A stretch of DNA of 57,869 nt, taken from assembly GCA_903872505.1 (NCBI GenBank), contig CAIQKV010000042.1, positions 65,139 through 123,007 of the forward strand, written 5' to 3'. The notes beneath the pieces were generated by a model. The model ran no database searches. It saw nothing but the letters and a program-made list of their open reading frames with translations, and was not told the origin of the DNA. Positions 8,817 to 32,420 of this stretch are shown in pieces. The position numbers were made by a program, and so were the translations under genes. The stretch comes from an uncultured Opitutia bacterium. GTDB lineage: Bacteria; Verrucomicrobiota; Verrucomicrobiia; Opitutales; Opitutaceae. Every line of letters begins with the position of its first letter. Positions within the stretch are counted from its first letter, which is position 1.

Positions 8817-10667
8817 TCACGCCTTCTTCTTCGCCGCGATCCAGGCGCGGACGTTCTCCTCGAGGACGTCGAGCGGGACGGCGCCGTCCTTCAGCACGAC
8901 GTCGTGGAACTCGCGCACGTCGAACCGGCCGCCCTGTGCCTTGGTGCCGCCGAGCTCCTGCGTCGCCAGCGCGCGCAGCTCGAGAATCTTCATCATGCCG
9001 ATTTTGTAGGCCGTGGCCTGCCCCGCCATCACGATGTAGCGGTTGGTCTCGGTGAAGATGTCGCGCTCGCTGTTCGGCGTATTGGTGCGCAGCCAGTCCA
9101 TCGTCTGCTGGCGCGTCCATTTTTTCGCGTGGAGGCCGGTGTCGACGACCAGCCGCGCGGCCCGCCAGAGCTCCATCGTCAGCCGGCCGAAGTCGGAATA
9201 CGGGTCGGCATAGAAGCCCATCTCCTTCGGGATCCGCTCGCAGTAGAGGCCCCAGCCCTCGACGTACGCCGTGTAGCCGAAGCCAAACTTCCGGAACTTC
9301 GGGATACCCTTCAACTCCTGCGCGATCGCGATCTGCATGTGGTGGCCCGGGATGCCCTCGTGGTAGGCGAGCGCCTCCATCTCATACTTCGGCACGCCGC
9401 CCATCTCATACAGATTCACGTAGTAGGTGCCGGGGCGCGACCCGTCCATCGCCGGCTGCATGTAGAACGCGCCGCCGCTCTCGCGCTCGCGGAACGGCTC
9501 CACCGCCCGGACCACGATCGCCGCCCGCGGCTTGGTCAGGAACAGCTCGTCCAGCCGGCCGCGCATCGTGTCGATGATCTTGATCGCCCCCTCGAGGTAG
9601 GCCGCCTTGCCCTCGGGCGTGTTGGGAAAATAGAACTTCGGGTCGGTCCGCATGTACTTGAAGAACGCCGGCAGGTCGCCCGCGAAGCCCACCTGGTCCT
9701 TGATCTTCGTCATCTCGCCATGGATCCGCGCGACCTCCTTCAGGCCGATCTCGTGGATCTGGTCGGCCGTCAGGTCCGTGGTCGTCGTGCGGCGCAGCGC
9801 GTAGTTGTAGTAGTCGGCGCCGTTTTCGAACTTCCACACGCCGTCGTCGTCGGTCGCGGTCTTTTCCAGCGACTCCAACTCGGCGATGAGCGCCTGGTAG
9901 GCGGGCTTGACCGCGCCGAGCAGCGCGAGTTTGGCGTCGGCTACCAGCCGGTCCTTGGTCGCCGCGTCGGTGTCGGCCAGCTTCCCCACCTTCTTCGCAA
10001 AGTCCTCCAGCAGCGTGCTGGGCTTGCCCGAGTCGTCGAACGGCGCGCCCTTGATGATCCCGCGCGAGGATTCCAACACGAGGGGGAACACGAACTTCGG
10101 CGGGATGATCCCCTTGGCGCGGCGCGCCTCGAGCCCGACGATGAGCTGGTCGAACTTCACCTTGAGGCCGTTGAGCCGCGCGATGTAGGCCTGCGCGTCC
10201 TTCACGTCGCCGATGTTGTGAAAGTTGATCAGGAACGCCGGCGCCATCGTGTGCTCGCCGAACATCTGGTTCACCGGGTAGTTGTAGAGCCGCCATTTGT
10301 AGCCCTCGATGCCGCGCTCCGCCTGGCGGACCCACAGCCGGTAGCTCAGCTGCGTCTGGTGGTCGAGCGCGTCGAAGTTGATCGTGCGCCGCAGCTCCGC
10401 GAGGTGCGTCACGTTGAGGGCGAGGTCCTCGGTGGCGCGCGCCTCGGTGTCCTCGTCCCACTTGTCATAGTCTTTCTTGATGCCGAGCTGCGCCTGGAAC
10501 TCCGGGCTGCGGTCCACAGCCTCGTTGAAGACGCGCTCGAAAAACGCGTTGGCCTTGGCCGACTCGGCCGCGATCTGTTCCGGGGTGGCAGTGACGGCAC
10601 GCGCGGCGCCGGTGACGAGGATCAGCAAGGCGGCCAGCGTGGCCGCGCGGGGTAGGAAGGGGTGCAT
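8817..10667 (-). CDS. DUF885-family secreted peptidase-like protein
   Basis: A 616-residue protein with an N-terminal signal peptide (MHPFLPRAATLAALLILVTGAARA). The rest matches DUF885: SPEFQAQLGIK, the probable zinc motif ALAYHEGIPGHHMQIAIA, and the downstream YVEGWGLYCERIPKEMG with a further Glu ligand. DUF885 proteins are gluzincin-like metallopeptidases. The C-terminus has the usual GQATAYKIGMMKILELR segment. The start is the ATG before the signal peptide; the longer open frame upstream runs antisense through the next dioxygenase and is rejected. Role: probable extracytoplasmic peptidase. Confidence 0.85.
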   Translation of the reverse strand: MHPFLPRAATLAALLILVTGAARAVTATPEQIAAESAKANAFFERVFNEAVDRSPEFQAQLGIKKDYDKWDEDTEARATEDLALNVTHLAELRRTINFDALDHQTQLSYRLWVRQAERGIEGYKWRLYNYPVNQMFGEHTMAPAFLINFHNIGDVKDAQAYIARLNGLKVKFDQLIVGLEARRAKGIIPPKFVFPLVLESSRGIIKGAPFDDSGKPSTLLEDFAKKVGKLADTDAATKDRLVADAKLALLGAVKPAYQALIAELESLEKTATDDDGVWKFENGADYYNYALRRTTTTDLTADQIHEIGLKEVARIHGEMTKIKDQVGFAGDLPAFFKYMRTDPKFYFPNTPEGKAAYLEGAIKIIDTMRGRLDELFLTKPRAAIVVRAVEPFRERESGGAFYMQPAMDGSRPGTYYVNLYEMGGVPKYEMEALAYHEGIPGHHMQIAIAQELKGIPKFRKFGFGYTAYVEGWGLYCERIPKEMGFYADPYSDFGRLTMELWRAARLVVDTGLHAKKWTRQQTMDWLRTNTPNSERDIFTETNRYIVMAGQATAYKIGMMKILELRALATQELGGTKAQGGRFDVREFHDVVLKDGAVPLDVLEENVRAWIAAKKKA

Positions 10668-19582: not shown

Positions 19583-19646
19583 GTAGCTACGAGCGCCAGC
19601 GAGTGGAATTCCGCCCAATCGGCCACTCGCTGGCGCTCGTAGCTAC
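19583..19646. repeat. REPIN-like inverted repeat A (GTAG...CTAC, stem GAGCGCCAGCGAGTGG)
   Basis: Two perfect 24-base arms (19583-19606 and 19623-19646) flank a 16-base centre. The outer ends are GTAG and CTAC. It lies in the 231-base gap between the MFS and desaturase genes. It shares its terminal tetranucleotides and architecture, but not its stem sequence, with repeats at 45451, 48000 and 48846. Confidence 0.8.
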
Positions 19647-19774: not shown

Positions 19775-20803
19775 ATGTCCCGTCCGCTCCCCTCCACTTC
19801 CCCGCACCGCCGCGCGCTCGCCGCGCTGGTGCAGTGGTTTGACGCCGACCACGCGCCCGGCGGGGCCGAAAAGATCCGCGCCGAGCCCGACGGTGTGGAA
19901 TGGGTCCGCTGCATTCCCTTCCTCATTCTGCACGCGGGCTGCCTGATCGTGCTGTGGGCCGGCTGGAGCCCCGTCGCGGTCGGGACCGCCGTGGCGCTCT
20001 ATTTCGCCCGGATGTTCGCGGTGACTGGCATTTACCACCGCTATTTTTCCCACAAGACGTACCGCACCTCGCGCGCCGGCCAGTTTCTGCTGGGGCTGTG
20101 GGGGGCGACGGCGGTGCAGCGCGGCGCGCTGTGGTGGGCCTACCACCACCGCAACCACCACCAGCACGCCGACGGGCCGGACGATGTCCACTCGCCCCAC
20201 GTGCATGGTTTCTGGTGGTCGCACCTCGGCTGGATCACCAGCCGCCGCAATTTCCCAACCGATTACTCGAAGATCCGCGATCTCGAGAAATTTCCCGAGC
20301 TCGTGTGGCTGAACCGGTTCGATACCGTCGTGCCGATTCTCTTCGCGACCGCGCTCTGGGGCGCCGGCTGGCTGCTCGAGCGCCACGCGCCCGGCCTGCA
20401 CACCACGCGCTGGCAGCTGCTCGGCTGGGGCTTCTTCGTCAGCACGACCTGCCTCTTTCACGGCACGTCCTGCATCAACTCCCTCGCGCACCTGCTGGGT
20501 CGCCGGCGCTTCCCGACCGCCGACGCTTCGCGCAACAGCTGGATCCTCGCGCTTATCACCCTCGGCGAAGGCTGGCACAACAACCACCACCGCTACATGC
20601 ATGCGACCCGCCAGGGCTTCTATTGGTGGGAATTCGATCCCACCTACTACGGGCTGAAACTGCTCTCGTTCACCGGCCTCATCTGGGACCTGCGGCCTGT
20701 GCCGGCGTCCGTGCTGGCCGAGGCCGCGGCGGCCGGCCGGGTCGCCGCCCCAGCCCGGCCCGGTGGCGCGGGGATTGAATCCGCACCCCCCTCCTGCGCG
20801 TAA
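19775..20803 (+). CDS. Membrane acyl-CoA/acyl-lipid desaturase (delta-9 type)
   Basis: A 342-residue integral membrane di-iron desaturase. The three histidine boxes are complete: HRYFSH, HHRNHHQH and HNNHH (in GEGWHNNHHRYMHATRQ). Hydrophobic pairs lie before and after the first two boxes, and FDPTYYGLKLLSFTGLIWDL is typical of the stearoyl-CoA/delta-9 desaturase C-terminus. It should introduce a double bond in saturated acyl chains, giving the substrate for the methyltransferases encoded downstream. It is first of eight co-directional genes with short gaps; its stop is 10 bases from the next ATG. Confidence 0.9.
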   Translation: MSRPLPSTSPHRRALAALVQWFDADHAPGGAEKIRAEPDGVEWVRCIPFLILHAGCLIVLWAGWSPVAVGTAVALYFARMFAVTGIYHRYFSHKTYRTSRAGQFLLGLWGATAVQRGALWWAYHHRNHHQHADGPDDVHSPHVHGFWWSHLGWITSRRNFPTDYSKIRDLEKFPELVWLNRFDTVVPILFATALWGAGWLLERHAPGLHTTRWQLLGWGFFVSTTCLFHGTSCINSLAHLLGRRRFPTADASRNSWILALITLGEGWHNNHHRYMHATRQGFYWWEFDPTYYGLKLLSFTGLIWDLRPVPASVLAEAAAAGRVAAPARPGGAGIESAPPSCA

Positions 20804-20813
20804 TCAGGGCTCC

Positions 20814-22100
20814 ATGGCTAAACTCGCGATCATCGGCACCGGCATCACCGGCCTCGGCTGCGCCCATTTCCTCCACCGGCAGTTCGACCTCACGCTGTTC
20901 GAGTCGGCTGACTATGCCGGCGGCCACACCAACACGGTCACCGTCGCCGAACCCGGCACCGGCCGGCCGGTGCCCATCGACACCGGGTTCATGGTGTTCA
21001 ACCACGTCACCTACCCGCTGCTCACCCGGCTGTTCCGTGAGCTGGCGGTGCCAACCAAGCCGACCCGGATGTCTTTCAGCGTGCGCCATGCCGGCAGCGG
21101 CCTCGAGTTCGCCGGCTCCTCGCTCAACCACCTCTTCGCCCAGCGCCGCAATCTCCTCCGGCCGCGTTTCTACCGGATGCTCGCCGCTGTCAGCCGCTTC
21201 AATCGCGAGGCGGTCGCCGCGCTCGACGATCCCGCGGTGGCGGCCGAGACCCTCGGCGACTACGTCCGGCGCCGCGGCTACGGGGAGGATTTTTTCAACC
21301 TCTACCTCGTGCCGATGAGCTCCGCGGTCTGGAGCACGCCGCCCGAGCTGATGCTGGCCTTCCCCGCGACCTCCCTGCTGCGCTTCTTCCACAACCACGG
21401 TTTTCTCGGCCTCGACACCCAGCACCAGTGGTGGACCGTGGACGGCGGCGCGCAAACCTACGTCGCGAAGATCTCCGCGCCGTGGCGCGACCGGCTCCGG
21501 CTCGGCTCGGCCGCCACCCGCATCGTGCGCTCGCCGCGCGGCGTGACCGTGCTGACCTCCACCGGCACCGCGCACCAGTTCGACCAGGTCATCCTCGCCT
21601 GCCACGGCGACCAGGCGCTGCGGCTGCTGGTCGAGCCCACGGCGGACGAGGCCCGCCTGCTGGGCGAGTTCAAGTACCAGCCCAACACCGCGACCGTGCA
21701 CACCGACACGAGCGTCATGCCCCGCACCCGCCTCGCGTGGTCGAGCTGGAACTACGAGATCAACCGCGACCCCGCCGGCCGCATCTCCGCCGCCACCCAT
21801 TACTGGATGAACTCGCTGCAGGGTGTCTCGGACCGCGAGAACTATTTCGTCACCATCAACCGGCCCGAGGCCATCGCCCCGGACAAGGTCCTCCGCCGCA
21901 TCGCCTACGAACACCCGCTCTTCAGCCTCGGCGCGCTGCACGCCCAGGCCGGGCTGCCCGCGCTCAACGCCGCCGCCCGCGGCACGACCGGGACGTTCTT
22001 CGCCGGCGCGTGGCAGCGTTACGGCTTTCACGAGGACGGCCTGCTGAGCGCCTACAACCTCAGCGCCCAGCTCCTCGGCCGCGACCCGTGGCCGGCGTGA
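20814..22100 (+). CDS. FAD-dependent amine-oxidase-like oxidoreductase (COG2907 type)
   Basis: A 428-residue flavoprotein. The N-terminus KLAIIGTGITGLGCAHFL is a GxGxxG dinucleotide fold ending in FESADYAGGHTNTV; the C-terminal FAD segment is GTFFAGAWQRYGFHEDGLLSA. The VDGGAQTYVAKI and SSWNYEINRD segments are typical of the 'predicted NAD/FAD-binding' family nearly always encoded next to DUF1365 and CFA-synthase genes. In related clusters flavoproteins of this type act on modified acyl chains, so a desaturase or reductase acting on the lipid is likely, but its reaction here is inference. Confidence 0.88.
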   Translation: MAKLAIIGTGITGLGCAHFLHRQFDLTLFESADYAGGHTNTVTVAEPGTGRPVPIDTGFMVFNHVTYPLLTRLFRELAVPTKPTRMSFSVRHAGSGLEFAGSSLNHLFAQRRNLLRPRFYRMLAAVSRFNREAVAALDDPAVAAETLGDYVRRRGYGEDFFNLYLVPMSSAVWSTPPELMLAFPATSLLRFFHNHGFLGLDTQHQWWTVDGGAQTYVAKISAPWRDRLRLGSAATRIVRSPRGVTVLTSTGTAHQFDQVILACHGDQALRLLVEPTADEARLLGEFKYQPNTATVHTDTSVMPRTRLAWSSWNYEINRDPAGRISAATHYWMNSLQGVSDRENYFVTINRPEAIAPDKVLRRIAYEHPLFSLGALHAQAGLPALNAAARGTTGTFFAGAWQRYGFHEDGLLSAYNLSAQLLGRDPWPA

Positions 22101-22173
22101 ACCCGGCGCGATTGCTGCGTCCATGCCCCCGCCTTGCCCGTAGCAACCCTGCCGCCATGATGCCACCCGCCGC

Positions 22174-23034
22174 ATGAATTCCTGCCTTTACGAGTGCCAC
22201 ATCATGCACGCGCGCTTCGCCCCGCGCCCGCACCGCTTTCTCTACCGGATCTTCCTGTTCGCGATCGACCTCGACGAACTCGATGCGCTGCACCGAGGGC
22301 TGGCGCTCTTTTCCGTCAACCGCGCCAACTTCTATTCCTTCCGCGAACGGGACTTCCTGCCAACGAGCGAGCCCGTCCACAACGGCTCGCCCGAAACGTC
22401 CCCGCCAGCTGGCCGCCTCAAGGCCCGCGTCACCGCCTTTCTCGCCGCCCGCGGCGTCGACCTCGCCGGCGGCCGCGTCCTGCTGGTCACCCTGCCGCGC
22501 GTCCTCGGCTACCTGTTCAATCCCGTGTCGTTTTACTTCTGCTACGACCGGGCCGGCACGCCCGTCGCCGCCCTTGCCGAGGTCACCAACACCTTCAAGG
22601 AAATGAAGCCGTACTTTCTCGGGCCTGCGACCCGGGCCGCGGCCGATGGCGCGTTCCGCCTCCGCACGCCCAAGCATTTCTACGTCTCACCCTACACGGA
22701 CGTGGACGTGGACTTCGACTTCACCCTGCGGGCACCCGCGGACCAGCTCGCGGTCCAAATCGACGACTACCTCGGGGCCGACCGCACGCTCACCAGCACC
22801 CTCACCGGCCCGCGCCGCGAACTCACCGGCGCCCGGCTGGCCTGGTATGCGGTGAAATACCCGCTGATCACCCTCCGGATCATCGCGCTGATCCACTGGC
22901 ACGCCTGCCGGCTCTGGCTGAAGCGTGTTCCGTGGTTCGCCAAGGCTGCCCGCCCCGCCGACCAGCGCGGCCTCTACCGTCCGCATTCCTCGCTCGCCCC
23001 CGCCGCCAACTCTCCCGCCACCTCCCATCTTTAA
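22174..23034 (+). CDS. DUF1365 family protein
   Basis: A 286-residue protein of the DUF1365 family (COG3496). Readable family segments are HARFAPRPHRFLYRIFLFAIDLDEL, RVLLVTLPRVLGYLFNPVSFYFCYD, ALAEVTNTFKEMKPYFL, KHFYVSPYTDVDVDFDFTL and LAWYAVKYPLITLRIIALIHWHACRLWLK. The family is consistently found between an FAD oxidoreductase and a CFA-synthase homologue, as here, and is thought to take part in lipid modification; no biochemical activity is established to my knowledge. The fold has no obvious catalytic signature. The ATG follows the FAD gene by 73 bases. Confidence 0.88.
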   Translation: MNSCLYECHIMHARFAPRPHRFLYRIFLFAIDLDELDALHRGLALFSVNRANFYSFRERDFLPTSEPVHNGSPETSPPAGRLKARVTAFLAARGVDLAGGRVLLVTLPRVLGYLFNPVSFYFCYDRAGTPVAALAEVTNTFKEMKPYFLGPATRAAADGAFRLRTPKHFYVSPYTDVDVDFDFTLRAPADQLAVQIDDYLGADRTLTSTLTGPRRELTGARLAWYAVKYPLITLRIIALIHWHACRLWLKRVPWFAKAARPADQRGLYRPHSSLAPAANSPATSHL

Positions 23035-23052
23035 ACGAACAATTGCCACGCC

Positions 23053-23076
23053 ATAGTCCCGTCGCAGCGGGACGTA
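23053..23076. repeat. Possible solo REP-like hairpin
   Basis: GTCCCG-TCGCAG-CGGGAC (23056-23073) forms a 6-bp stem, preceded by ATAG and followed by GTAG. It may be a degenerate single copy of the GTAG repeats or a simple hairpin; it sits 20 bases before the CFA-synthase-like ATG. Confidence 0.3.
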
Positions 23077-23092
23077 GGCGGGCCGACCCAGC

Positions 23093-24376
23093 ATGAACCC
23101 TCCCTCCTCCTCCCCGGCCCTGGCCGGCTTCGCCCGCGCGCCCGGCGCCTCCTTCGAGCAGCGCGCCGTCCTCGGCGCCCTGGCTGCGATGCCCCGCGGC
23201 CGCCTCCGCCTCGAGCTGCCCGGCGGCGCCGCGGCCGAGTTCGGCGCGGGCGCCGAGCGCCTGCCGCTCGACCTGCCCACGACCGCCAACATCCGCGTGC
23301 TCCGGCCGGCGTTCTTCAAGAAATGTTTCTGGGCCGGCGACATCGGCTTCGCCGAGTCCTTCATCGACGGCGACTGGGAGACGCCGGACATCGCGGCGGT
23401 CGTCGCCTGGTTCATCCTGAACGTCGAGCACGCACCCACGCTGTCCGGCTCGCAACGGGCCCGCTCGTTCGCGCTCAACTTCCTGCGCCTGGCCAACCGC
23501 GCCGGCCACCTACTCCGGCCCAATTCCCGCGCCACGGCGCGCCGCAACATCCGCGAGCACTACGACCTCTCCAACGACTTCTTCGCGCTCTTCCTCGATC
23601 CATCGATGATGTACTCGGGCGCGCACTGGCCCCGGCCCGGCCTCACCCTCGCGGAGGCCCAGCGCGAGAAAAACGACGCGCTGTGCCGCAAGCTCCGGCT
23701 CACCCCCGCCGACCACGTGCTCGAGATCGGCAGCGGCTGGGGCGGCTGGTCGCTCCACGCGGCGCAAACCTACGGCTGCCGCGTCACCACCGTCACCATC
23801 TCGCAGCAGCAGTTCGACCTGGCGACCGCGCGGGTCGCCGCGGCCGGGCTCGCGGACCGCGTGGACGTGCAGCTGCGCGACTACCGGGACCTCGCCGGCC
23901 GCTTCGACAAGGTCGTCTCGATCGAGATGATGGAGGCCATCGGCCACCGCTACCTGCCGGCGTTCTGCGCCACGCTGGACCGCGTGCTCAAGCCGGACGG
24001 CCTGCTCGCGCTCCAGTTCATCACCTGCCCGGACGGCCGCTACGACGAGTTCCGCCGCGGCGTGGACTTCATCCAGAAGCACATCTTCCCGGGCTCGCTG
24101 CTGCTCTCCCTCAACCGCGTCAACGACCAGCTCACCCGCGCCGGCGGCTTCGTGCTCCACGGCGTCGAGGATCACGGCCACGACTACGTGCCGACCCTCC
24201 GCGCGTGGCACGAAAACTTCCGCGCGCGGCTCGCCGAGGTCCGCGCGCTCGGGTTCGACGACCGCTTCATCCGCAAGTGGAGCTACTACCTCGGCTACTG
24301 CGAGGCCGCCTTCGCCCTGCGGAACATCTCCGTCGTCCAGACGCTGCACACGCGGGCCAATAACATTTCGTTCTGA
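23093..24376 (+). CDS. Cyclopropane-fatty-acyl-phospholipid synthase family methyltransferase (altered carbonate site)
   Basis: A 427-residue SAM-dependent acyl-lipid methyltransferase of the CFA family. An N-terminal lipid-binding domain (GDIGFAESFIDGDWETPDI) precedes HYDLSNDFFALFLDPSMMYS and the SAM motif VLEIGSGWGGWS (209-220). Compared from memory with E. coli Cfa, the carbonate-binding Cys139 (YSCAYW) is Gly176 here (YSGAHW) and His266 is Gln308 (LALQFI). Glu281 and Tyr365 correspond to the retained Glu239 and Tyr317. Loss of two carbonate ligands suggests a methyl or methylene branch product rather than a plain cyclopropane ring. Neighbours support action on unsaturated phospholipid chains. 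Confidence 0.87.
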   Translation: MNPPSSSPALAGFARAPGASFEQRAVLGALAAMPRGRLRLELPGGAAAEFGAGAERLPLDLPTTANIRVLRPAFFKKCFWAGDIGFAESFIDGDWETPDIAAVVAWFILNVEHAPTLSGSQRARSFALNFLRLANRAGHLLRPNSRATARRNIREHYDLSNDFFALFLDPSMMYSGAHWPRPGLTLAEAQREKNDALCRKLRLTPADHVLEIGSGWGGWSLHAAQTYGCRVTTVTISQQQFDLATARVAAAGLADRVDVQLRDYRDLAGRFDKVVSIEMMEAIGHRYLPAFCATLDRVLKPDGLLALQFITCPDGRYDEFRRGVDFIQKHIFPGSLLLSLNRVNDQLTRAGGFVLHGVEDHGHDYVPTLRAWHENFRARLAEVRALGFDDRFIRKWSYYLGYCEAAFALRNISVVQTLHTRANNISF

Positions 24377-24389
24377 ACCCGCCCGCACC

Positions 24390-24797
24390 ATGATCCTCTT
24401 TCTCCGCGGCCTGTTCCTCCTCGTCCTCGGCTCGATGCTCTGGGTCACCAGCTGGGCCAGCCTGCACTGCCCGCTCTTCGCGGTCCCGCCCGGCGTGGCC
24501 ACCCATCCCTGGTTCATCGCGACGCTCTTCGACGCCTACTGGGGCTTCACGACGTTCTTCGTGTGGGTCTGCTTCAAGCAGACCGCCTGGACCGCGCGCG
24601 TGGCGTGGTTCGCCGCCATCATGCTGCTCGGCAACATCGCCATGTCCGCCTACTGCCTCGACGAGTTGTTCCGGACGCCCCGGGACGGCCGCCTCGCCGA
24701 CCTGCTGACCGCGCGCCGCGACGGCCCCGGCGGGCTGGGCCTGGCGCTGGCCGCCCTCGGCCTCATCGTCGTGGCGGTCGCCCTGCCGCGCGGCTGA
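24390..24797 (+). CDS. DUF1475 small integral membrane protein
   Basis: A 135-residue protein with three to four helices: LRGLFLLVLGSMLWVTSWA, WGFTTFFVWVCFKQTAW, RVAWFAAIMLLGNIAMSAYCL and GLALAALGLIVVAVALP. The opening and the central DAYWGFTTFF...WVCFKQ segment match DUF1475. The family occurs with CFA-synthase homologues. Function unknown; a membrane accessory role in lipid modification is the context-based guess. It lies 13 bases after the methyltransferase stop. Confidence 0.75.
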   Translation: MILFLRGLFLLVLGSMLWVTSWASLHCPLFAVPPGVATHPWFIATLFDAYWGFTTFFVWVCFKQTAWTARVAWFAAIMLLGNIAMSAYCLDELFRTPRDGRLADLLTARRDGPGGLGLALAALGLIVVAVALPRG

Positions 24798-24862
24798 ACG
24801 TGATTCGCCGCTCGCGAACACGGCTTGTGCCGGGCGGCCGCGTCATCTAGCCATTACCGCCT

Positions 24863-25411
24863 GTGTCTAAGCCCGCCTCCAACGTCCCGCCTGCGCCCCG
24901 GCGCACTTTCTGGCAGCGGCGCGTGCGCGACCCGATCGTCGCCCAGCTCACCCAGGGCATCAGTCCGGAGCAGATCGCCCTGACCATCGCCGTGGGCAGC
25001 GCCTTCGCCATTTTTCCCGTGCTCGGCACCACGACTCTGCTGTGCTTCCTCATCGCCCTGGTCCTGCGGCTGAACCAGCCCATCGTCCAGCTCATCAACC
25101 AGGCCCTCTGGCCGGTGCATATCCCGGCGATCTTCGGCTGCATCTGGCTGGGCGAGGCCATCTTCGGCGCGCCCCACGTGCACATCAACATCCGGTTCCT
25201 GCGCCACATGTCCGCGCTGGTGTGGAATGATCCCGCCCTGTTCTTCCACCAGTTCGGCCTGACCGTGATGTACGCCGTCGTCGCGTGGGCGATCCTGGCG
25301 CCGTTCTACATCGCCGCGGTTTACCACATCGCGCTCCCCATCACCCGCGAAGTCACCTACCTGAAGCACAAGGCGGAGACGACGCCGGGCACCCGGCCGC
25401 CCATGCCATGA
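24863..25411 (+). CDS. DUF2062 membrane protein
   Basis: A 182-residue protein starting at GTG. The DUF2062 signature QLTQGISPEQIALTIAVGSAFAIFPVLGTTTLLC is followed by LRLNQPIVQLINQALWPVHIPAIF and a C-terminal hydrophobic segment (VVAWAILAPFYIAAVYHI). DUF2062 proteins are small inner-membrane proteins often encoded with glycosyltransferases or lipid enzymes; their activity is unknown. Its stop overlaps the DUF1295 start by ATGA. Confidence 0.82.
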   Translation: MSKPASNVPPAPRRTFWQRRVRDPIVAQLTQGISPEQIALTIAVGSAFAIFPVLGTTTLLCFLIALVLRLNQPIVQLINQALWPVHIPAIFGCIWLGEAIFGAPHVHINIRFLRHMSALVWNDPALFFHQFGLTVMYAVVAWAILAPFYIAAVYHIALPITREVTYLKHKAETTPGTRPPMP

Positions 25412-26196
25412 GCGCCGGCCCGCTGCTGCTGATCGCGCTCGGCGTCCTCTGCGCCGGGTTCGCCGGTCTTCACCTCGTCGCCCGCCGCCTCGACAACTAC
25501 GGCATCGTGGACATCGCGTGGTCGTATGCGTTTGGCGCCCTCGCGGCGTTCTACGCCCTGGCCGGACCCGGCTGGCCGGTGCGCCGCGCCCTGCTCGCCG
25601 CCCTGGCCGTCCTGTGGAGCGCCCGGCTCGGCACGCACCTCGCCGTCCGCGTGATCGGGCACCACCCGGTCGAGGACGGGCGCTACCGGCAGCTGCGCCA
25701 GGACTGGGCGGCGAACTTCACCGCCAAGATGGCCGGCTTTTTCCAGCTGCAGGCCGTCTCCGTTGTCCTGCTCGGCGCCGCCTTCCTCGTCGTCTGCCTC
25801 AACCCCGCCCCGGCCCTCCACCCGCTGGAACTCGCCGGCGCCGCGCTCTGGCTCCTCGCGATCAGCGGCGAGGCCGTGGCCGACGCCCAGCTCGCCGCCT
25901 TCAAGCGCGACGCCGCCAACCGGGGCAAAGTCTGCGACGCCGGCCTCTGGCGCTACAGCCGGCACCCGAACTATTTCTTCGAGTGGCTCGTCTGGGTGGC
26001 GTTTTTCATCTTCGCCCTCGGGTCGCCCGGGGGGTGGGTCGCGATTATCGGCCCGGCCAGCATCCTTTACCTCCTGCTGCGCGTAACAGGGATTCCCATG
26101 ACCGAGGAACAAAGCATCCGCAGCCGCGGCGACGCCTACCGCCGCTACCAGCGCACCACGAGCGCCTTCGTCCCGTGGTTTCCGAAAAAGCCGTGA
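25408..26196 (+). CDS. DUF1295 protein (steroid 5-alpha-reductase-like fold)
   Basis: A 262-residue polytopic membrane protein. VARRLDNYGIVDIAWSYAFG, GRYRQLRQDWAANFTAKMAGFF, CDAGLWRYSRHPNYFFEWLVW and GIPMTEEQSIRSRGDAYRRYQRTTSAFVPWFP are the DUF1295 hallmarks. The last two segments match the NADPH-site region of steroid 5-alpha-reductases and isoprenylcysteine methyltransferases. A lipid double-bond reductase role fits the context. It overlaps both neighbours (ATGA before, GTGA after), so all three are translationally coupled. Confidence 0.88.
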   Translation: MSAGPLLLIALGVLCAGFAGLHLVARRLDNYGIVDIAWSYAFGALAAFYALAGPGWPVRRALLAALAVLWSARLGTHLAVRVIGHHPVEDGRYRQLRQDWAANFTAKMAGFFQLQAVSVVLLGAAFLVVCLNPAPALHPLELAGAALWLLAISGEAVADAQLAAFKRDAANRGKVCDAGLWRYSRHPNYFFEWLVWVAFFIFALGSPGGWVAIIGPASILYLLLRVTGIPMTEEQSIRSRGDAYRRYQRTTSAFVPWFPKKP

Positions 26197-27203
26197 TTGA
26201 CCGCCTGCTCGAAAAAAATCTCCTGCCCGACTGGCTGGTGCGGATCGGCATCCGCCGGCTGCTCGCGCAGCGGCTGCGCGAGGAGACGGCCCGCTACTCG
26301 GCCGACGCCTATGTCGCCGACCTGAAAACCCGGCCGCTGGCCGAGCAGACCGCCGCCGCCAACGAGCAGCACTACGAGGTCGCGACCCCGTTCTACCAGT
26401 TTTGCCTGGGCAAGCGGCTCAAGTATTCCAGCTGCCTCTACCCGACCGGGGCCGAGTCGTTGGACGAGGCCGAGGAGTGCATGCTCGCGCTCTATACCGA
26501 GCGCGCCCAGCTGGCCGACGGGCAGAACATCCTCGAGCTCGGCTGCGGCTGGGGCTCGCTCGCGCTCTACAACGCGGCGCGGTTCCCGCACTCCCGGATC
26601 ACCGCCATTTCCAATTCCCGCACGCAGAAGGAATACATCGACACCGAGGCGCGGAAGCGCGGCCTCACCAACCTCCGCATCCTCACCTGCGACATCAACA
26701 CCTTCGACATCGCCCCCGGCCAGTTCGACCGCGTCGTCTCGGTCGAGATGTTCGAGCACCTGAAGAACTACCAGCGGCTGTTCGCGCACATCGCCCGCTG
26801 GCTGAAGCCCGGCGGCCTGCTGTTCGTCCACATCTTCACGCACTCGCGCCTCTCCTACCACTTCGTCGCCCGGGACGCCTCCGACTGGATGAGCCGCTAT
26901 TTTTTCACCGGCGGCCAGATGCCGGCGCACGACCTGCTGCCGCGGTTCCAGGATGACCTGAAGCTGGTCGCGGACTGGAAGGTGGACGGCACCCACTACC
27001 AGCGGACGGCCGAGCACTGGCTGCAAAACATGGACGCCCACCGCGAGGAGATCCGGCCTCTGTTCATCGACACCTACGGCCGCGACCAGGCCACCAAGTG
27101 GTGGGCCTACTGGCGCGTGTTTTACCTGAGCTGCGCCGAGCTCTGGGGCTACCGGGACGGCAAGGAGTGGATCGTCAGCCACTATCTGTTTCAAAAACCC
27201 TGA
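26193..27203 (+). CDS. CFA-family methyltransferase resembling plant coclaurine N-methyltransferase
   Basis: A 336-residue SAM methyltransferase, second of its superfamily in this block but without the long N-terminal lipid-binding domain. SAM motif ILELGCGWGSLALY is at 113-126. QKEYIDTEARKRGLTN, VEMFEHLKNYQ, FQDDLKLVADW and ELWGYRDGKEWIVSHYLF follow the order and wording of the plant coclaurine/pavine N-methyltransferases, which belong to the CFA superfamily. The start is a GTG overlapping the DUF1295 stop. It probably methylates a lipid or amine made by the operon; the context favours lipid. Confidence 0.85.
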   Translation: MIDRLLEKNLLPDWLVRIGIRRLLAQRLREETARYSADAYVADLKTRPLAEQTAAANEQHYEVATPFYQFCLGKRLKYSSCLYPTGAESLDEAEECMLALYTERAQLADGQNILELGCGWGSLALYNAARFPHSRITAISNSRTQKEYIDTEARKRGLTNLRILTCDINTFDIAPGQFDRVVSVEMFEHLKNYQRLFAHIARWLKPGGLLFVHIFTHSRLSYHFVARDASDWMSRYFFTGGQMPAHDLLPRFQDDLKLVADWKVDGTHYQRTAEHWLQNMDAHREEIRPLFIDTYGRDQATKWWAYWRVFYLSCAELWGYRDGKEWIVSHYLFQKP

Positions 27204-27221: not shown

Positions 27222-30200
27222 CTAGCCCGGCAGCTTGAAGCCCTCGAACTGCGCCTTCAGGTCCTGCAGGAACGCCGCGGTGCCCGCGCCGTTGACGACC
27301 CGGTGGTCGAACGTGACCGACAGCGTGACGACCTCGACCGGGTGGATCATGCCGCCGTCGTTGATCATCCGCTCGTGCGCCGTGCCCACGAAGAGCGTGC
27401 TCATCGCCGGGGGCACCACGATGGGCTGGGCCTTCTCGATCCCGAACGCGCCCAGGCTCGTCAGGTTGAGCGGCGACTGCACCTCCTCGACCCGGCCCGC
27501 GCGCGTCGCGTCCACCGCGGCGGCGTAGGCGGTGACAAACTCCGGCCAGCTCAGCCGGTTGCTCCGGCGCACGACCGCCGTGCCCAGCCGGTCGCCCTCC
27601 AGCGCCACGGCGATGCCCAGCTCAAACTCGGCCTGCTCCAGGATCGCGCCGTCCTTCGCCACGATCCGACGGAACGGCGCGTGCTGCTCCATCGCGCGGA
27701 CGACGCACCACGCCATCATCACCGACGGCGACGGGGCGTCCTTGCCGGATTTTTGCTTCGCCGTCTCGCGCGCGGTCCGGATCGCGGCCCAGCGCACGTC
27801 CAGCTCCATGTTCGCGGGCACGACGCTGTCGAGCCGGCGGGTGATGGCGGCGGGCAGCGCGGGTTCGCGCCGCTCGCCCGGCCGGGCGGCGGGGGCGGCC
27901 GGAGCCGCCGGGCGTTGCTGGAGCTGCTGCAAACTGGTGGGTGCGGCGGCCATGGCCGGCGCGGCGCCGGGCGTGACCAGCGCGATCTCCTGGCCGATCT
28001 CGACCACGTCGTCGGGCCGGATCTTCCACGCCTTGAAGGTGCCGGCGAACGACGCCTCGATCGGGTAGACGGCCTTGTCGGTCTCGACCTCGCAGAGCAC
28101 GTCGTCGAGGCTCACCTTGTCCCCGGCCTGCTTGTGCAGGGCGACCACGCGCGCCGAGCGCAGGCCCTCGCCCATGATGGGCACTTTCACGACGATGTCG
28201 CTGGTTCCGGGCACGGGGGTGTCTACCGGCGCCGGTGTCCCGCCGGAAGCCGAAACCGCCGAGGCGGCCGAAGCGGACAGGGCGCTTTGTCCGGCACCAG
28301 CCGAAGGGACGCGCTCCAACCTGGTCGCCACCACGCGGCGCAGCGCCGCCACGATGCGCGGCGTGTCGGGCAGCGCCGCGTACTCGTAGACCGGGCTGTA
28401 GCCGATCATCACGTTGCCCTTCGACACCAGCACGGGCGGCGCCACCATCCGGCTCCAGACATCGGGCCGGCCCGCGAGGTGGGAGATGATCATCTGGCCG
28501 ACGGAGCAGTTCTCCGTGTCCTCCTGCACCACGACGAGCCGGCCGGTCTTGCGCACCGACTCCTCGATCATCTCGCGGTCCCACGGCACGATCGAGCGCA
28601 GGTCGATCAGCTCGACGCTGACGGCGCCCGCCACTGCGGCGACGGCCTCGAGGGATTTCTCCATCGTGTTGCCCCACGCGACCAGCGTGACGTCGCGGCC
28701 GGCGGTGCGGCAGCGGGCGTGGCCGATCGGCACCGCCATCGCGGGCTCGTCGAGCTCGTGCTCGGCCCAGAGCAGGTGCTTCGGCGCGAGGAAAATCACC
28801 GGGTCCTCCGCATGCATCGCCGTCCAGAGCAGGCCGGCGGCATCCTCCGGCGTGCTGGGGATGACGACGTTGAGCCCGGGAAAATGCGCGATGGCCGCCT
28901 CGTTCGCCTGCGAATGCCAGAGCGAGCCGCCCGGCAGGTAGGCGCCGTAGGGCGCGTAGATCACGACCGGGCAGGACCACTGGCCGTGGGTGCGCCAGCG
29001 CAGCGTCGCGAGGTTGGTCACCAGCTGGTTCCAGCCCGGGTAGATGAAATCAATGAACTGCAGCTCGAACACCGGCCGCTTGCCGTAGCTCGCGAGCCCG
29101 CAGGCCACGCCGAGGATCGTGCTCTCCGCCAGCGGCGAGTTGAACACCTGGTCGGGAAAGTCCGTCGAGAGTTTCTGCGTCAGGCGGAACACGCCGCCCT
29201 TCGGGTCCTCGATGTCCTCGCCGAAGATCAGGCGGCCCGGATCCGAGTCGAGCCCGGCGCGGAGCGTGAGGTTGATCACGTCGCCCATCCGGTACTTGCC
29301 CGGCCGCAGCACCTGCTCGTCGAGCTGGGCGGGCTGCGAGGAGACGTTGGCCTCGAGCTCGTGCGCGACCGGATTCTCGGCCAGCTCGGCCGCGGCGTAG
29401 TCGAGCCGCACGCGCTCCTTGATCTCCCGGTCGAGCGTCTCGAACTCCGGCTCGGTGAGCTCGCCCTCGGCGAGGAGCTGCGCCTTCAGCGTCAGCAGCG
29501 GGTCGCGCTCCCCGAGCGCCGCCAGGTCCTCCTTGCTGCGGTAGATGGCCTGGTCGTCGGAACTCGTGTGGCTGGAGAGCCGCTCCAGCTTCAGCCAGAG
29601 CAGCACCGGGCCCCCGCCCGCGCGGATCTCCGCCACGGCGGCCTCCGTGGCGGCGTGGACCGCCTCGACGTCCCAGCCGTCGAGCACCCGCCACTGTTCC
29701 GCGTTGAGCACCGCGAGGGCGCGCGGCGTCGTCCGCCGCGTCGGCGTGCTGATGCCAAAGCCGTTGTCCTCGACGACGAACAGCAGCGGCAGCTTGCGCT
29801 CCTGCGCAAAGCACACCGCCTCGAAGAAATCCCCCTGCCGCGTCGCCGCGTCGCCGACCGTCGTGACCACGAGGCTCTGCTTCCCGTCCAGCTGCATGCC
29901 CCACGCCATCCCGCAGGCGGGCAGCAGCTGGGCGGCGGTCGGCGTGGGCACGCTCCAGATGTTCTGCGCGCGGTAGCTGTAGTGCGACGGCATCTGCCGG
30001 CCGCCCGACGACGAGTCGCGCTTCGCCATGTAGTCGAGCGCCAGCTGCCGCGTGGTCACGCCGCGCCCGAGCACCAGGCCGCGGTCGCGGTAGTACGGCA
30101 CGATGTAATCCTCCGGCTGCAGCTGCACCCCGATCGCGGCGAGCGCCTCGTGGCCGCGGCCGGACACGTGAAAGTGCCCCTTGCCCTGGCGGTTGAGGTT

Positions 30201-30293
30201 TTCCTCGCGCAGGTCGCCGTGGCGGCTTTCCAGGATGGTGGTCAGCAGCCGGCGCTTGAGCGAGGGGGACAGGCGGGAGGCAACAGCGGGCAT
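27222..30293 (-). CDS. Single-chain 2-oxoacid dehydrogenase: E1-alpha + E1-beta + lipoyl domain + E2 catalytic domain
   Basis: A 1023-residue fusion. E1-alpha (about 1-320) has the thiamine-diphosphate region VGDAATRQGDFFEAV to VVEDNGFGIS (147-182). E1-beta (about 330-660) has FGEDIEDPKGGVFR, FNSPLAESTILG and HSQANEAAIAHFPGL. A Ser/Ala/Pro linker leads to a lipoyl domain (about 698-775) with the modifiable Lys740 in VETDKA, then an Ala/Pro linker, then an E2 acyltransferase domain (about 812-1023) with His997 in FDHRVVNGAG. The usual DHRxxDG is N-G here. No peripheral-subunit-binding domain is visible between lipoyl and catalytic domains. GDG is GDA in the cofactor motif. The start is the ATG opening MPAVASRLSP. 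Likely substrates are branched-chain 2-oxoacids or pyruvate; no E3 gene is nearby. Confidence 0.9.
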   Translation of the reverse strand: MPAVASRLSPSLKRRLLTTILESRHGDLREENLNRQGKGHFHVSGRGHEALAAIGVQLQPEDYIVPYYRDRGLVLGRGVTTRQLALDYMAKRDSSSGGRQMPSHYSYRAQNIWSVPTPTAAQLLPACGMAWGMQLDGKQSLVVTTVGDAATRQGDFFEAVCFAQERKLPLLFVVEDNGFGISTPTRRTTPRALAVLNAEQWRVLDGWDVEAVHAATEAAVAEIRAGGGPVLLWLKLERLSSHTSSDDQAIYRSKEDLAALGERDPLLTLKAQLLAEGELTEPEFETLDREIKERVRLDYAAAELAENPVAHELEANVSSQPAQLDEQVLRPGKYRMGDVINLTLRAGLDSDPGRLIFGEDIEDPKGGVFRLTQKLSTDFPDQVFNSPLAESTILGVACGLASYGKRPVFELQFIDFIYPGWNQLVTNLATLRWRTHGQWSCPVVIYAPYGAYLPGGSLWHSQANEAAIAHFPGLNVVIPSTPEDAAGLLWTAMHAEDPVIFLAPKHLLWAEHELDEPAMAVPIGHARCRTAGRDVTLVAWGNTMEKSLEAVAAVAGAVSVELIDLRSIVPWDREMIEESVRKTGRLVVVQEDTENCSVGQMIISHLAGRPDVWSRMVAPPVLVSKGNVMIGYSPVYEYAALPDTPRIVAALRRVVATRLERVPSAGAGQSALSASAASAVSASGGTPAPVDTPVPGTSDIVVKVPIMGEGLRSARVVALHKQAGDKVSLDDVLCEVETDKAVYPIEASFAGTFKAWKIRPDDVVEIGQEIALVTPGAAPAMAAAPTSLQQLQQRPAAPAAPAARPGERREPALPAAITRRLDSVVPANMELDVRWAAIRTARETAKQKSGKDAPSPSVMMAWCVVRAMEQHAPFRRIVAKDGAILEQAEFELGIAVALEGDRLGTAVVRRSNRLSWPEFVTAYAAAVDATRAGRVEEVQSPLNLTSLGAFGIEKAQPIVVPPAMSTLFVGTAHERMINDGGMIHPVEVVTLSVTFDHRVVNGAGTAAFLQDLKAQFEGFKLPG

Positions 30294-30410
30294 GAATACT
30301 CCGGGGGCGGGGAGGGGCGGGTTTGGCGCGCGGCAAGGCTCACGCAATTGCCGGCCATGGCAACGCGTTTTCCATACTCCCTTCGGCGTAAAAAGGCCGC
30401 CCGGGATCGG

Positions 30411-32420
30411 CTACGGGCGGACCGCCCCGAGGGTCCGCGCATGGCGCATCAGGCCGCCGCGGAAAGCCGGGAATCCCGCGCCCATCAGCAGCGCAAAGTC
30501 GGCGTCCTCCGGGGACTTGAGCACGCCCGCGTCGAGCACGCGCTTCGTCTCGTCGATCATCACGCGGTTGAGCCGCTCCGTGATCGCCGCGGCCGTGAGC
30601 GGTGACGTCGCCGCCGGCGCGAACTGCGCCATGGCCGGGTTGAACGCCTCCTTGCCGCCGGCGTAGGTATAGAAGCCCGTGCTCGCCCCGTTCTTCCGGC
30701 CCTTCATCCCGGCCGCGAGCATGCGCCGGCAGACCGTCGCGCCGGTGAAGCGCCCCGGAAAATAGTGCGCCATCTCCCCGTAGATGAAATCGCTCACGTC
30801 CACCCCGACCTCGTCGATCAGCCGCATCGGGCCCATCGGCCAGCCCCAGCCGCGCATCGCCGCGTCGAGCTCCGCCGTCGCCACGCCCTGCTCCCAGAGC
30901 AGGCAGGCCTCGTTGAGGTAGAAGAAAAGCACCCGCGTGACGAGGAAGCCGGGCGACGACCGGCAGATGACCGGGGTCTTCCCCAGCGCCTTGGCGAACG
31001 CGAGCGCGCGTTCCGCCGTCACGCGGGTCGTGTGCGGACTGAGCACCAGCTCCACCAGCGGCATGCGGCTCACGGGATTGAAAAAATGCAGGCCGACGGT
31101 GCGGCCGGGCTCCGCCACCTTCGCGGCCAGTTCCTCGATCGGCAGCGCCGAGGTGTTTGACGCCAGCACGCAGTCGGGCCGCACCACCGCCGCCAGCTCC
31201 GCGAAGAGCTGCTGCTTCACCGCGACGTCCTCCGTGATTGCCTCGACCACGAGGTCGCATTCGCCAAATCCCTCCCACGCCGTGGTGGTCCGCACGCGGG
31301 CCAGCCCGGCGGCCGCCGCCTCCGGCTTCAGTTTTTTCCGCGCCACCGCCTCGTCAAACACGCCGCGGATGACCGCCAGCCCGCGCGCGACGAACTCCGG
31401 CTGCACGTCGCGCAGCACCACCTCGTAACCGCAGGCGGCGCACCACTGCGCGATGCCGGAGCCCATCACGCCGGCGCCAACCACGCCGATCTTCTTGAAG
31501 GGGACGGGCGCCGCGGCCGCCGCAGCCGGTGGAAACCAGGCGTCGACCGTGAGCTTCTTGACCGCGTCCTTGAGAAAAAAAACGTAGATGAGGTTCTTGC
31601 AGACCTCGCCCGCGGTCACCTCGCCGAAGATCCGGGACTCCACCGCGAGCGCCGCGTCGACCGGCTGCCCTGCCGTCTGCTCAACCACCGCGATGGCCTG
31701 CAGCGGCGCCGGCTCAAAGCCCCGCGTCTTCTTCGCGGTCACCGCGCGCAGCCCGGCGAAAAACGCCGCGTCCACCGCGGGTGGCGCCGCTCGGGCGGGA
31801 AGCCCGTTCGCGGCCAGCCGGAGCGCGGCGGCCTGCGCGCGCACCTTGAGTTCGGCCGCGGGGGCGAGTTCGTCGACGATCCCGAGGCGGAGCGCCTCCG
31901 CGGCGGGCAGGAGCGTGGCCTTGAGGAGGCAGTCCAGCGCGGCCGCGGCCCCGATGAGCCGGGGCAGGCGCACCGTCCCGCCCCAGCCGGGAATCGTCCC
32001 GACGCTGGTCTCCGGCAGGCCGATGACGGTCTCGCGCGCCTCGCTCGCGATGCGCCAGTGGCTGGCCAGCGCCACCTCGGTGCCGCCACCCGCGCAGGCC
32101 CCGTGGATGGCGCACACGACCGGCACCTTGAAATTGGCCAGCAGGGCGAAGCACGCCTGCCCCTCGCGCGAGACCGCTATCGCCGCCGCCGCGTCGGGCA
32201 GCTGCGCGAGCCACTTGAGGTCGGCCCCGGCGATGAAGATGCGCTCCTTCGCGCTCAGCACGACGACCGCTTTCACGGGCTGCGCCGCCAGCGCGGCGAG
32301 CGCCGCGCGCAGGTCGGCAAAGACGGCGGGGGTGAGCACGTTGACCCGCGCGGCCGGATCATCGAACACGATCCAGCCAATTTGGTCGCGGTCCACGGAA
32401 TGGGTGACGGTCGGATTCAT
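30411..32420 (-). CDS. Fused enoyl-CoA hydratase / 3-hydroxyacyl-CoA dehydrogenase (FadB/FadJ-like)
   Basis: A 669-residue beta-oxidation enzyme. The hydratase half (1-190) has the oxyanion segment FIAGADLKWL and two candidate catalytic Glu residues in CAGGGTEVALA and IGLPETSVGTIPGWGGTVRL. The dehydrogenase half has the NAD-binding IGVVGAGVMGSGIAQW, the catalytic His-Glu region VGLHFFNPVSRMPLVELV, and the C-terminal FLVTRVLFFYLNEA and GWPMGPMRLIDEVGVDV. It converts trans-2-enoyl-CoA to 3-oxoacyl-CoA. It lies upstream of, and could be co-transcribed with, the E1/E2 fusion (117-base gap); both feed acyl-CoA metabolism. No thiolase is adjacent. Confidence 0.92.
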   Translation of the reverse strand: MNPTVTHSVDRDQIGWIVFDDPAARVNVLTPAVFADLRAALAALAAQPVKAVVVLSAKERIFIAGADLKWLAQLPDAAAAIAVSREGQACFALLANFKVPVVCAIHGACAGGGTEVALASHWRIASEARETVIGLPETSVGTIPGWGGTVRLPRLIGAAAALDCLLKATLLPAAEALRLGIVDELAPAAELKVRAQAAALRLAANGLPARAAPPAVDAAFFAGLRAVTAKKTRGFEPAPLQAIAVVEQTAGQPVDAALAVESRIFGEVTAGEVCKNLIYVFFLKDAVKKLTVDAWFPPAAAAAAPVPFKKIGVVGAGVMGSGIAQWCAACGYEVVLRDVQPEFVARGLAVIRGVFDEAVARKKLKPEAAAAGLARVRTTTAWEGFGECDLVVEAITEDVAVKQQLFAELAAVVRPDCVLASNTSALPIEELAAKVAEPGRTVGLHFFNPVSRMPLVELVLSPHTTRVTAERALAFAKALGKTPVICRSSPGFLVTRVLFFYLNEACLLWEQGVATAELDAAMRGWGWPMGPMRLIDEVGVDVSDFIYGEMAHYFPGRFTGATVCRRMLAAGMKGRKNGASTGFYTYAGGKEAFNPAMAQFAPAATSPLTAAAITERLNRVMIDETKRVLDAGVLKSPEDADFALLMGAGFPAFRGGLMRHARTLGAVRP

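Follow-up and report, generated by a model that had tools for sequence, protein, structure and literature searches.

Gene organization of the locus

The window analyzed here, a stretch of 57,869 nucleotides from an uncultured Opitutia bacterium of the family Opitutaceae, harbors a block of eight genes on the forward (+) strand (19775–27203). Genes were delineated from reading frames, from which the start codons were also chosen, and assigned by Pfam profile matches, with each named family above its own cut-off. In order, the block encodes a membrane fatty acid desaturase (19775–20803, PF00487, 2e-13), a FAD oxidoreductase homologous to UfaD (20814–22100, PF01593, 2e-22), a DUF1365 protein homologous to UfaO (22174–23034, PF07103, 2.5e-74), a first CMAS/CFA-type, UfaM-type SAM methyltransferase (23093–24376, PF02353, 1.1e-83), a small DUF1475 membrane protein (24390–24797, PF07343, 3.1e-08), a DUF2062 membrane protein (24863–25411, PF09835, 3.9e-12), a DUF1295 membrane protein of the steroid 5-alpha-reductase/ICMT superfamily (25408–26196, PF06966, 2.8e-69), and a second CMAS-type methyltransferase, the putative FufM orthologue (26193–27203, PF02353). 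Successive genes are separated by 10, 73, 58, 13, 65, −4, and −4 bases; both negative values are stop/start overlaps (ATGA and GTGA, respectively). Coordinates and order, as obtained from the reading frames, reproduce the single-direction arrangement with gaps from −4 to 73 bases given in a preliminary description of this DNA. The families and gene order uphold its prediction of an operon for membrane-lipid-chain modification, equipped with its own desaturase and with two different methyltransferases of the CFA superfamily. The 5′ border of the block is marked by a perfect inverted repeat (19583–19646; two 24-nt arms, 16-nt spacer) located between an upstream MFS gene and the block. One arm of this REP-like element, allowing ≤2 mismatches, occurs at 27 sites in the same genome versus none for the reversed control.

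Surveying gene neighborhoods, a check named in the preliminary description, revealed all eight genes in this order and on one strand in 10 of 29 stretches drawn from same-family genomes, a set that includes L068, L041, and short contig-end stretches. Given this recurrence, the gene order is not a product of chance. The order also recurs, without DUF1475 and DUF2062, on the gammaproteobacterial (Acinetobacter) plasmid pYUSHP14-1 (NZ_CP090068; 27–52% identity per gene), where a sensor kinase and a response regulator follow the cluster and a lipocalin gene lies upstream; this cluster is known from annotation, and no functional study of it was found. DUF1475 was not detected in L047, L048, and L061–L063, though the core genes are kept there, and tblastn showed DUF2062 to be absent from several relatives with core genes. 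Both are accessory proteins. DUF1365 and the UfaM-type domain were fused in one reading frame in 9 of 12 stretches chosen for long frames.

Homologues of the furan fatty acid enzymes

Purple bacteria are known to contain furan fatty acids, which are lipids with antioxidant function. The block holds a homologue of each of the four enzymes in the published route to dimethyl furan fatty acids (PMC7380195), and the adjacency of these UfaM, UfaD, UfaO, and FufM homologues bears out an earlier pointer to furan fatty acids. The FAD enzyme is 39% identical to its UfaD counterpart in R. palustris (431 aa) and 42% identical to that in C. johrii (426 aa); the match is near full length, and the FAD gene neighbors DUF1365 in each compared UfaD counterpart locus. 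The DUF1365 protein, the sole DUF1365 match in its genome, shares 41% and 33% identity with the UfaO counterparts of R. palustris and C. johrii, respectively. An alignment of eight DUF1365 sequences contained 19 invariant positions, and no solved structure of this family was found among the structure matches. With 33–42% identity and gene context as their basis, the two proteins are putative UfaD and UfaO matches.

A 70-row methyltransferase tree placed the first of the two enzymes inside the UfaM clade (33 rows, support 100/99) with its R. palustris and C. johrii counterparts, apart from E. coli Cfa and the other CFA of its own genome. The second shared a separate clade (34 rows, support 100/100) with the R. 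palustris FufM counterpart, to which it is 50.3% identical over 334 aa. R. palustris XCP genes were assigned to RPA numbers by identity and elimination, this strain differing from CGA009. This assignment agrees with published values: the other two R. palustris members share 37% and 28% identity with C. johrii UfaM, compared with 38% and 26% published for R. sphaeroides UfaM (PMC7380195).

At the sites of Cfa residues C139, E239, H266, and Y317, the first methyltransferase carries G, E, Q, and Y, and the second S, E, H, and Y, with F replacing I268; C, E, H, and Y are kept by E. coli Cfa, the CFA on contig C19 of the same genome, and R. palustris C12. The bicarbonate-site residue set of Cfa was thus found in neither block methyltransferase, and we reject two independent cyclopropane synthases on the basis of the tree and these residues. 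Q at the H266 position is no proof of methylation without ring closure, since cotton cyclopropane synthases also show Q there. Taken as a whole, the sequence identifies the first methyltransferase as a predicted UfaM-type enzyme, not a classic cyclopropane synthase. The last gene is a proposed FufM orthologue that would add the second methyl group to the furan ring.

The desaturase matched the mouse-type acyl-CoA desaturase 1 chain 4ymk (1.1e-19), and its translation holds the histidine clusters HRYFSH, HHRNHHQHAD, and HNNHH. It is 48% identical to the desaturase at the equivalent place on the Acinetobacter plasmid. This acyl-CoA desaturase-type enzyme could supply the first double bond.

Predicted pathway and product

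Most probably, the block is a self-contained operon for furan fatty acids whose substrates are the acyl chains of existing membrane phospholipids. In the proposed pathway, the desaturase would put a cis double bond into a saturated chain, after which the UfaM-type enzyme would add a methyl group and shift the double bond. The UfaD-type FAD enzyme would then add a second, conjugated trans double bond, yielding a conjugated diene, and the UfaO-type DUF1365 protein would insert O2-derived oxygen, closing a monomethyl furan. Addition of a second methyl group by the FufM-type enzyme would give the dimethyl furan fatty acid. All steps after the initial desaturation have been shown experimentally for homologues (PMC7380195). 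The preliminary description considered the product not predictable from known pathways, a view we revise because the second methyltransferase groups with FufM and the three other enzymes match UfaD, UfaO, and UfaM of the published route; mono- and dimethyl furan fatty acids would be the expected products. If the desaturase is of the delta-9 type, the furan ring would be placed at C8–C11, two carbons nearer the carboxyl end than in the known 9M5/9D5 acids. By analogy with the role reported for 9M5, the furan lipid probably protects the membrane as an antioxidant.

Compared with the purple-bacterial pathway, the block adds the desaturase, DUF1475, and DUF2062, and whereas fufM (RPA0924) of R. 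palustris lies apart from ufaMOD (RPA2569–2571), here all are together, with no ChrR-type regulator scoring above the cut-off. We regard the block as a condensed version of an established pathway, joined by one conserved partner, DUF1295. This recasts it as a testable prediction, namely a dimethyl furan fatty acid whose ring position would follow from the block's own desaturase, and a single DNA segment may suffice to make furan lipids from saturated chains. A literature search found no paper on this gene block.

Alternatively, the block might make cyclopropane or plain methyl-branched chains, with DUF1295 or the FAD enzyme saturating a methylated olefin to give a branched chain. The membership of both methyltransferases in PF02353, the additional match of DUF1295 to the steroid reductase family, and the part played in cyclopropane synthesis by cotton enzymes that bear Q at position H266 are compatible with such products, but we consider them unlikely: the first methyltransferase falls in the UfaM clade, another CFA, retaining the classic C139/H266, is encoded on contig C19 of this genome, the R. 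sphaeroides FAD homologue desaturates rather than reduces, and such a route leaves DUF1365 and the FufM-type enzyme without a place. Actinobacterial 10-methyl fatty acid systems consist of a methyltransferase and a FAD reductase.

DUF1295 and the second methyltransferase

The description of DUF1295 as reductase-like was sustained by a match above the cut-off for Steroid_dh (PF02544, 3.6e-08); the protein also exceeded that for ICMT (PF04140, 2.9e-05). Among solved structures, the DUF1295 profile gave its best match to ICMT 4a2n, a SAM-type methyltransferase (9.7e-05), and a weaker one to 7c83, a reductase of the NADPH type (0.056). The motif RHPNYFF was invariant in 12/12 aligned DUF1295 sequences, followed by E or Q, and this C-terminal RHPxY-type motif together with the profile match places DUF1295 in the superfamily.

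Across 193 genomes of the phylum, out of 200 requested, 53 contained DUF1295 at E ≤ 0.001, of which nine under 100 bits were dropped and 44 kept as strong matches. DUF1365 was also present in 43 of these 44, and a FufM-type gene (E ≤ 1e-60) in 36, being absent from the other eight; all 38 carriers of a FufM-type gene encoded DUF1365 and 36 of them DUF1295 (kinship ignored throughout). Within the 48 DUF1365 genomes the link between DUF1295 and FufM was weak (Fisher p 0.054, kinship ignored). A strict tie of DUF1295 to FufM therefore fails in the phylum, where DUF1365 is tracked more closely (43/44 versus 36/44). In one genome (G162), DUF1295 was interrupted by a stop. In eight named purple-bacterial genomes DUF1295 did track FufM: the five with FufM have an adjoining DUF1295 of 205–215 bits. 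R. rhenobacensis and C. johrii encode UfaM and UfaO, with neither FufM nor a DUF1295 of the 205–215-bit type, and R. capsulatus has no UfaM, UfaO, or FufM and a DUF1295 of just 23.6 bits. When viral contigs were scanned for relatives of DUF1295, none of the 35 pattern matches proved to be one. From these genomic patterns, we infer that DUF1295 is a conserved partner of the furan fatty acid enzymes, a link for which a literature search found no paper.

The eight strong-DUF1295 genomes without a FufM-type gene indicate that the DUF1295 and FufM parts are separable, and a Phyllobacterium plasmid carries DUF1295 with UfaD/UfaO and no second methyltransferase within the stretch seen. Both would fit a block whose route in this host goes no further than the monomethyl furan, its last two genes acting on a different lipid. 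We consider this very improbable, as fufM immediately follows DUF1295 in R. palustris, the two overlap by 4 bases both in the block and in R. palustris XCP, and production of the dimethyl furan by the R. palustris enzyme has been demonstrated in vivo as well as in vitro. Least probable of all is a coclaurine-type small-molecule N-methyltransferase placed in the operon for another purpose: among solved structures, plant N-methyltransferases (coclaurine, pavine, and tetrahydroprotoberberine) are closest to the second methyltransferase by sequence kinship (coclaurine N-methyltransferase 4.1e-77 versus cyclopropane synthase 3.2e-31), but we reject it on the 50% identity to the FufM counterpart, the shared clade, and the restriction of FufM-type proteins to DUF1365 genomes in the phylum set, with the Arabidopsis FufM homologue in the same plant group being a lipid-droplet protein. 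The block shows no alkaloid genes.

With a dimethyl furan as the favored product, DUF1295 might also act in its renewal. Singlet oxygen opens a methylated furan to an ene-dione, and a saturated 1,4-diketone can lose water and close to a furan again. Because DUF1295 is a relative of enzymes that reduce the enone C=C in steroids, we tentatively propose it as an ene-dione reductase that would use NAD(P)H to form the saturated 1,4-diketone, with furan re-closure recycling the scavenger. This role is doubtful; if true, the membrane antioxidant would be renewed in place rather than consumed. The role of DUF1295 can be addressed at once, since deletion strains of RPA0923 (likely the DUF1295 gene) and of RPA0923 plus fufM are listed in a published strain table (PMC7380195).

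Eukaryotic parallels and regulation

Arabidopsis AtUFAMD1, AtUFAO1, and AtFUFM1/LIME1 comprise homologues of UfaM plus UfaD, UfaO, and FufM on lipid droplets (PMC10940516). Their genes are scattered, in contrast to the block, with UfaM- and UfaD-like regions joined in one protein; in the passages considered, function is proposed by homology only. In Chlamydomonas, singlet oxygen induces a DUF1295 gene, a DUF1365 gene, CFA1, and CFA2 (the last also labelled coclaurine N-methyltransferase) in a SAK1-dependent manner (PMC4067076); unlike here, the passages considered link these genes neither with furan fatty acids nor with a single pathway. In both bacteria and algae, the conserved membrane protein DUF1295 may belong to the biology of furan fatty acids.

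The preliminary description had also linked such gene sets to ECF/singlet-oxygen regulons; no such link was found in this host. ChrR (TIGR02451) was above the cut-off in none of 41 family genomes, with the Caulobacter positive control detected; weak matches occurred in 7 of the 41, the host genome not among them. The 400 bases preceding the block, and those preceding its counterparts in 12 relatives, contained no sigma-E-like motif, and on these two results a ChrR-run regulon in this host is judged unlikely. Applied to 12 outside loci, the same kind of scan recovered the motif just ahead of the gene in only two, UfaD of C. johrii and a Rhizobium FAD gene. Related clusters on Rhizobium and Burkholderia plasmids adjoin an ECF sigma factor and an anti-sigma factor.

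Results and discussion

Eight genes on the + strand (window 19775-27203), separated by 10, 73, 58, 13, 65, -4 and -4 bases, probably constitute a compact and complete operon for dimethyl furan fatty acids, as judged from sequence. The preliminary description was right about the eight-gene block, and Pfam bore out, gene by gene, its naming of a desaturase, an FAD oxidoreductase, DUF1365, a CFA-type methyltransferase, DUF1475, DUF2062, DUF1295 and a second methyltransferase. Its view that the product could not be predicted from known pathways does not hold, as counterparts of UfaM, UfaD, UfaO and FufM are all present. In R. sphaeroides, the CFA homologue UfaM methylates cis-vaccenate, the FAD protein UfaD yields a methylated conjugated diene, and the DUF1365 protein UfaO inserts O2-derived oxygen to give the monomethyl furan fatty acid 9M5; an additional methylase of R. 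palustris, FufM (RPA0924; 26% identity to UfaM, encoded away from the ufa genes), converts 9M5 to the dimethyl acid 9D5 (Lemke et al. 2020, PMC7380195). The block is a variant of this already known pathway.

A perfect inverted repeat belonging to a REP-like family (window 19583-19646, 24-nt arms), which follows an MFS transporter gene, marks the upstream limit of the block. One arm occurs at 27 places in the host's draft genome (3.55 Mb, 121 contigs, 94.8% complete) at ≤2 mismatches, often in head-to-head pairs and at several places close to contig ends. Convergent genes on the - strand form the downstream limit: a 2-oxoacid dehydrogenase combining E1 alpha, E1 beta, lipoyl and E2 acyltransferase domains in a single 1041-aa reading frame (window 27222-30347) and, adjoining it, a FadJ-like fused enoyl-CoA hydratase/3-hydroxyacyl-CoA dehydrogenase (window 30411-32420). 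The sole tRNA call, tRNA-Glu (window 10479-10569, - strand), a probable false positive, falls within the coding frame of a DUF885 protein.

The first methyltransferase shares 44% identity over 359 aa with the Cereibacter johrii UfaM counterpart and 31% with the other CFA protein of its own genome (contig C19). In a 70-row tree it falls within a 33-row clade including the R. palustris and C. johrii UfaM counterparts (support 100/99), separate from E. coli Cfa, the C19 protein and a third R. palustris member; the program warned of a possible false grouping of two long branches, C19 and C12 (an R. palustris CFA-type row). At the position of the bicarbonate ligand H266 of E. coli, Q occupies all 33 rows of this clade and H all three classic CFA rows, a difference to be read cautiously because cotton cyclopropane synthases share the change to Q (PMC3132707). 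The separate CFA-type enzyme (G000:C19:9332-10144; loci L001 and L196) keeps the classic residues of the bicarbonate site, so cyclopropane fatty acids may be made in this host as well. Identities to the R. palustris and C. johrii counterparts were 39% and 42% for the FAD protein, and 41% and 33% for the DUF1365 protein. Searches for a second DUF1365 match in the same genome, and by sequence for a DUF1365 relative with a solved structure, returned none. Among 12 phylum stretches picked for long-looking frames, nine (L209-L217) carry DUF1365 and a UfaM-type domain in one open frame, a natural fusion in other phylum members that ties UfaO to UfaM.

Eight named purple-bacterial genomes were searched for the FufM comparison. 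At E ≤ 1e-15, R. palustris XCP has three CFA-family members: the neighbour of DUF1365 (UfaM), a protein of full CFA type and the neighbour of DUF1295. The last was taken as FufM because the identities of C. johrii UfaM to the latter two (37% and 28%) are close to those published for UfaM with RPA3082 and RPA0924 (38% and 26%; PMC7380195). To this presumed FufM, the block's last protein is 50.3% identical over 334 aa; its closest solved structures are plant coclaurine-type N-methyltransferases (4.1e-77, versus 3.2e-31 for cyclopropane synthases). The 34 FufM-type rows all fall into a single group in the 70-row tree (support 100/100) and carry F at the position of E. coli I268.

The block desaturase, one of five desaturase-family genes in the host, resembles acyl-CoA desaturase 1; were it a delta-9 enzyme, the ring would lie at C8-C11. 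The likeliest role of the predicted lipid is that of an antioxidant, because 9M5 is reportedly lost upon singlet oxygen exposure and reportedly protects cells (PMC7380195).

The part of the block worth following up is DUF1295. It is dispensable for the published furan chemistry, because FufM on its own gave 9D5 in R. sphaeroides and in vitro (PMC7380195), and the genome of C. johrii, a relative of R. sphaeroides, contained no DUF1295 match. The block protein matches DUF1295 strongly, with the steroid 5-alpha-reductase and isoprenylcysteine methyltransferase (ICMT) families also above cut-offs; twelve aligned relatives share RHPNYFF followed by E or Q. Against solved structures, the DUF1295 profile matched ICMT at 9.7e-05, the record of a mitochondrial import subunit at 0.0055 and a steroid reductase at 0.056. 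The XCP locus suggests that RPA0923 is the R. palustris DUF1295 gene; the accessible sections of Lemke et al. (PMC7380195) list RPA0923 and RPA0923 + RPA0924 deletions and contain no result for the RPA0923 deletion. One table in PMC4067076 reports SAK1-dependent singlet-oxygen induction of Chlamydomonas CFA1, CFA2, one DUF1365 gene and one DUF1295 gene. None of the papers retrieved linked DUF1295 to furan fatty acids in the text accessible.

Across 193 phylum genomes (each ≥90% complete), DUF1365 was detected in 48, DUF1295 (≥100 bits) in 44 and FufM-type proteins (E ≤ 1e-60) in 38. All 38 FufM-type genomes had DUF1365 and 36 had DUF1295 (exceptions G097 and G131); DUF1365 accompanied DUF1295 in 43/44 (exception G185), and 10 of the 48 DUF1365 genomes were without FufM. 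Co-occurrence gave Fisher p ≤ 1e-28, values that ignore shared ancestry; restricted to DUF1365 genomes, the DUF1295-FufM association had p 0.054. The two genes lay ≤1 kb apart in 26/38 genomes, on the same strand in every case (26/26).

Within the family, 29 of 41 genomes gave a DUF1295 match, and the 29 stretches centred on these matches were compared. All eight genes recurred in identical order and strand in 10, and the order FAD-DUF1365-CFA-DUF1295-FufM in 18; many of the remainder were truncated by contig ends or by the choice of stretch. DUF1295 and FufM genes were both found in 26 and were neighbours in 25 of these (gap 6-144 bases); in L063 the DUF1295 match was weak and away from the FufM gene. 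Three loci (L047, L061, L062) form a divergent variant whose 3' end carries a different desaturase and in which DUF1475 and DUF2062 were not detected; neither was detected in L048.

Neither the block nor 12 relatives showed a sigma-E-like motif within the 400 bases upstream, which is weak evidence because the same pattern was found in only 2/12 outside loci, directly before C. johrii ufaD and a Rhizobium FAD gene. ChrR exceeded the cut-off in none of the 41 family genomes, with weak matches in seven. On Rhizobium, Burkholderia and Cupriavidus plasmids, DUF1295-FufM pairs lie near FAD-DUF1365 and mostly CFA genes too; sigma-70-family genes are close to the cluster in both Rhizobium records and the Burkholderia record, and a ChrR-family gene is near it in R. 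sp. CIAT894 and Phyllobacterium. FufM was not found within the Phyllobacterium stretch, which does contain DUF1295, FAD and DUF1365. An Acinetobacter plasmid, like the block, carries desaturase-FAD-DUF1365-CFA-DUF1295-FufM in the same order. On beta- and gammaproteobacterial plasmids (L069, L071, L072), chalcone-isomerase-family and lipocalin genes accompany the furan fatty acid genes; their products are possible lipid-binding helpers.
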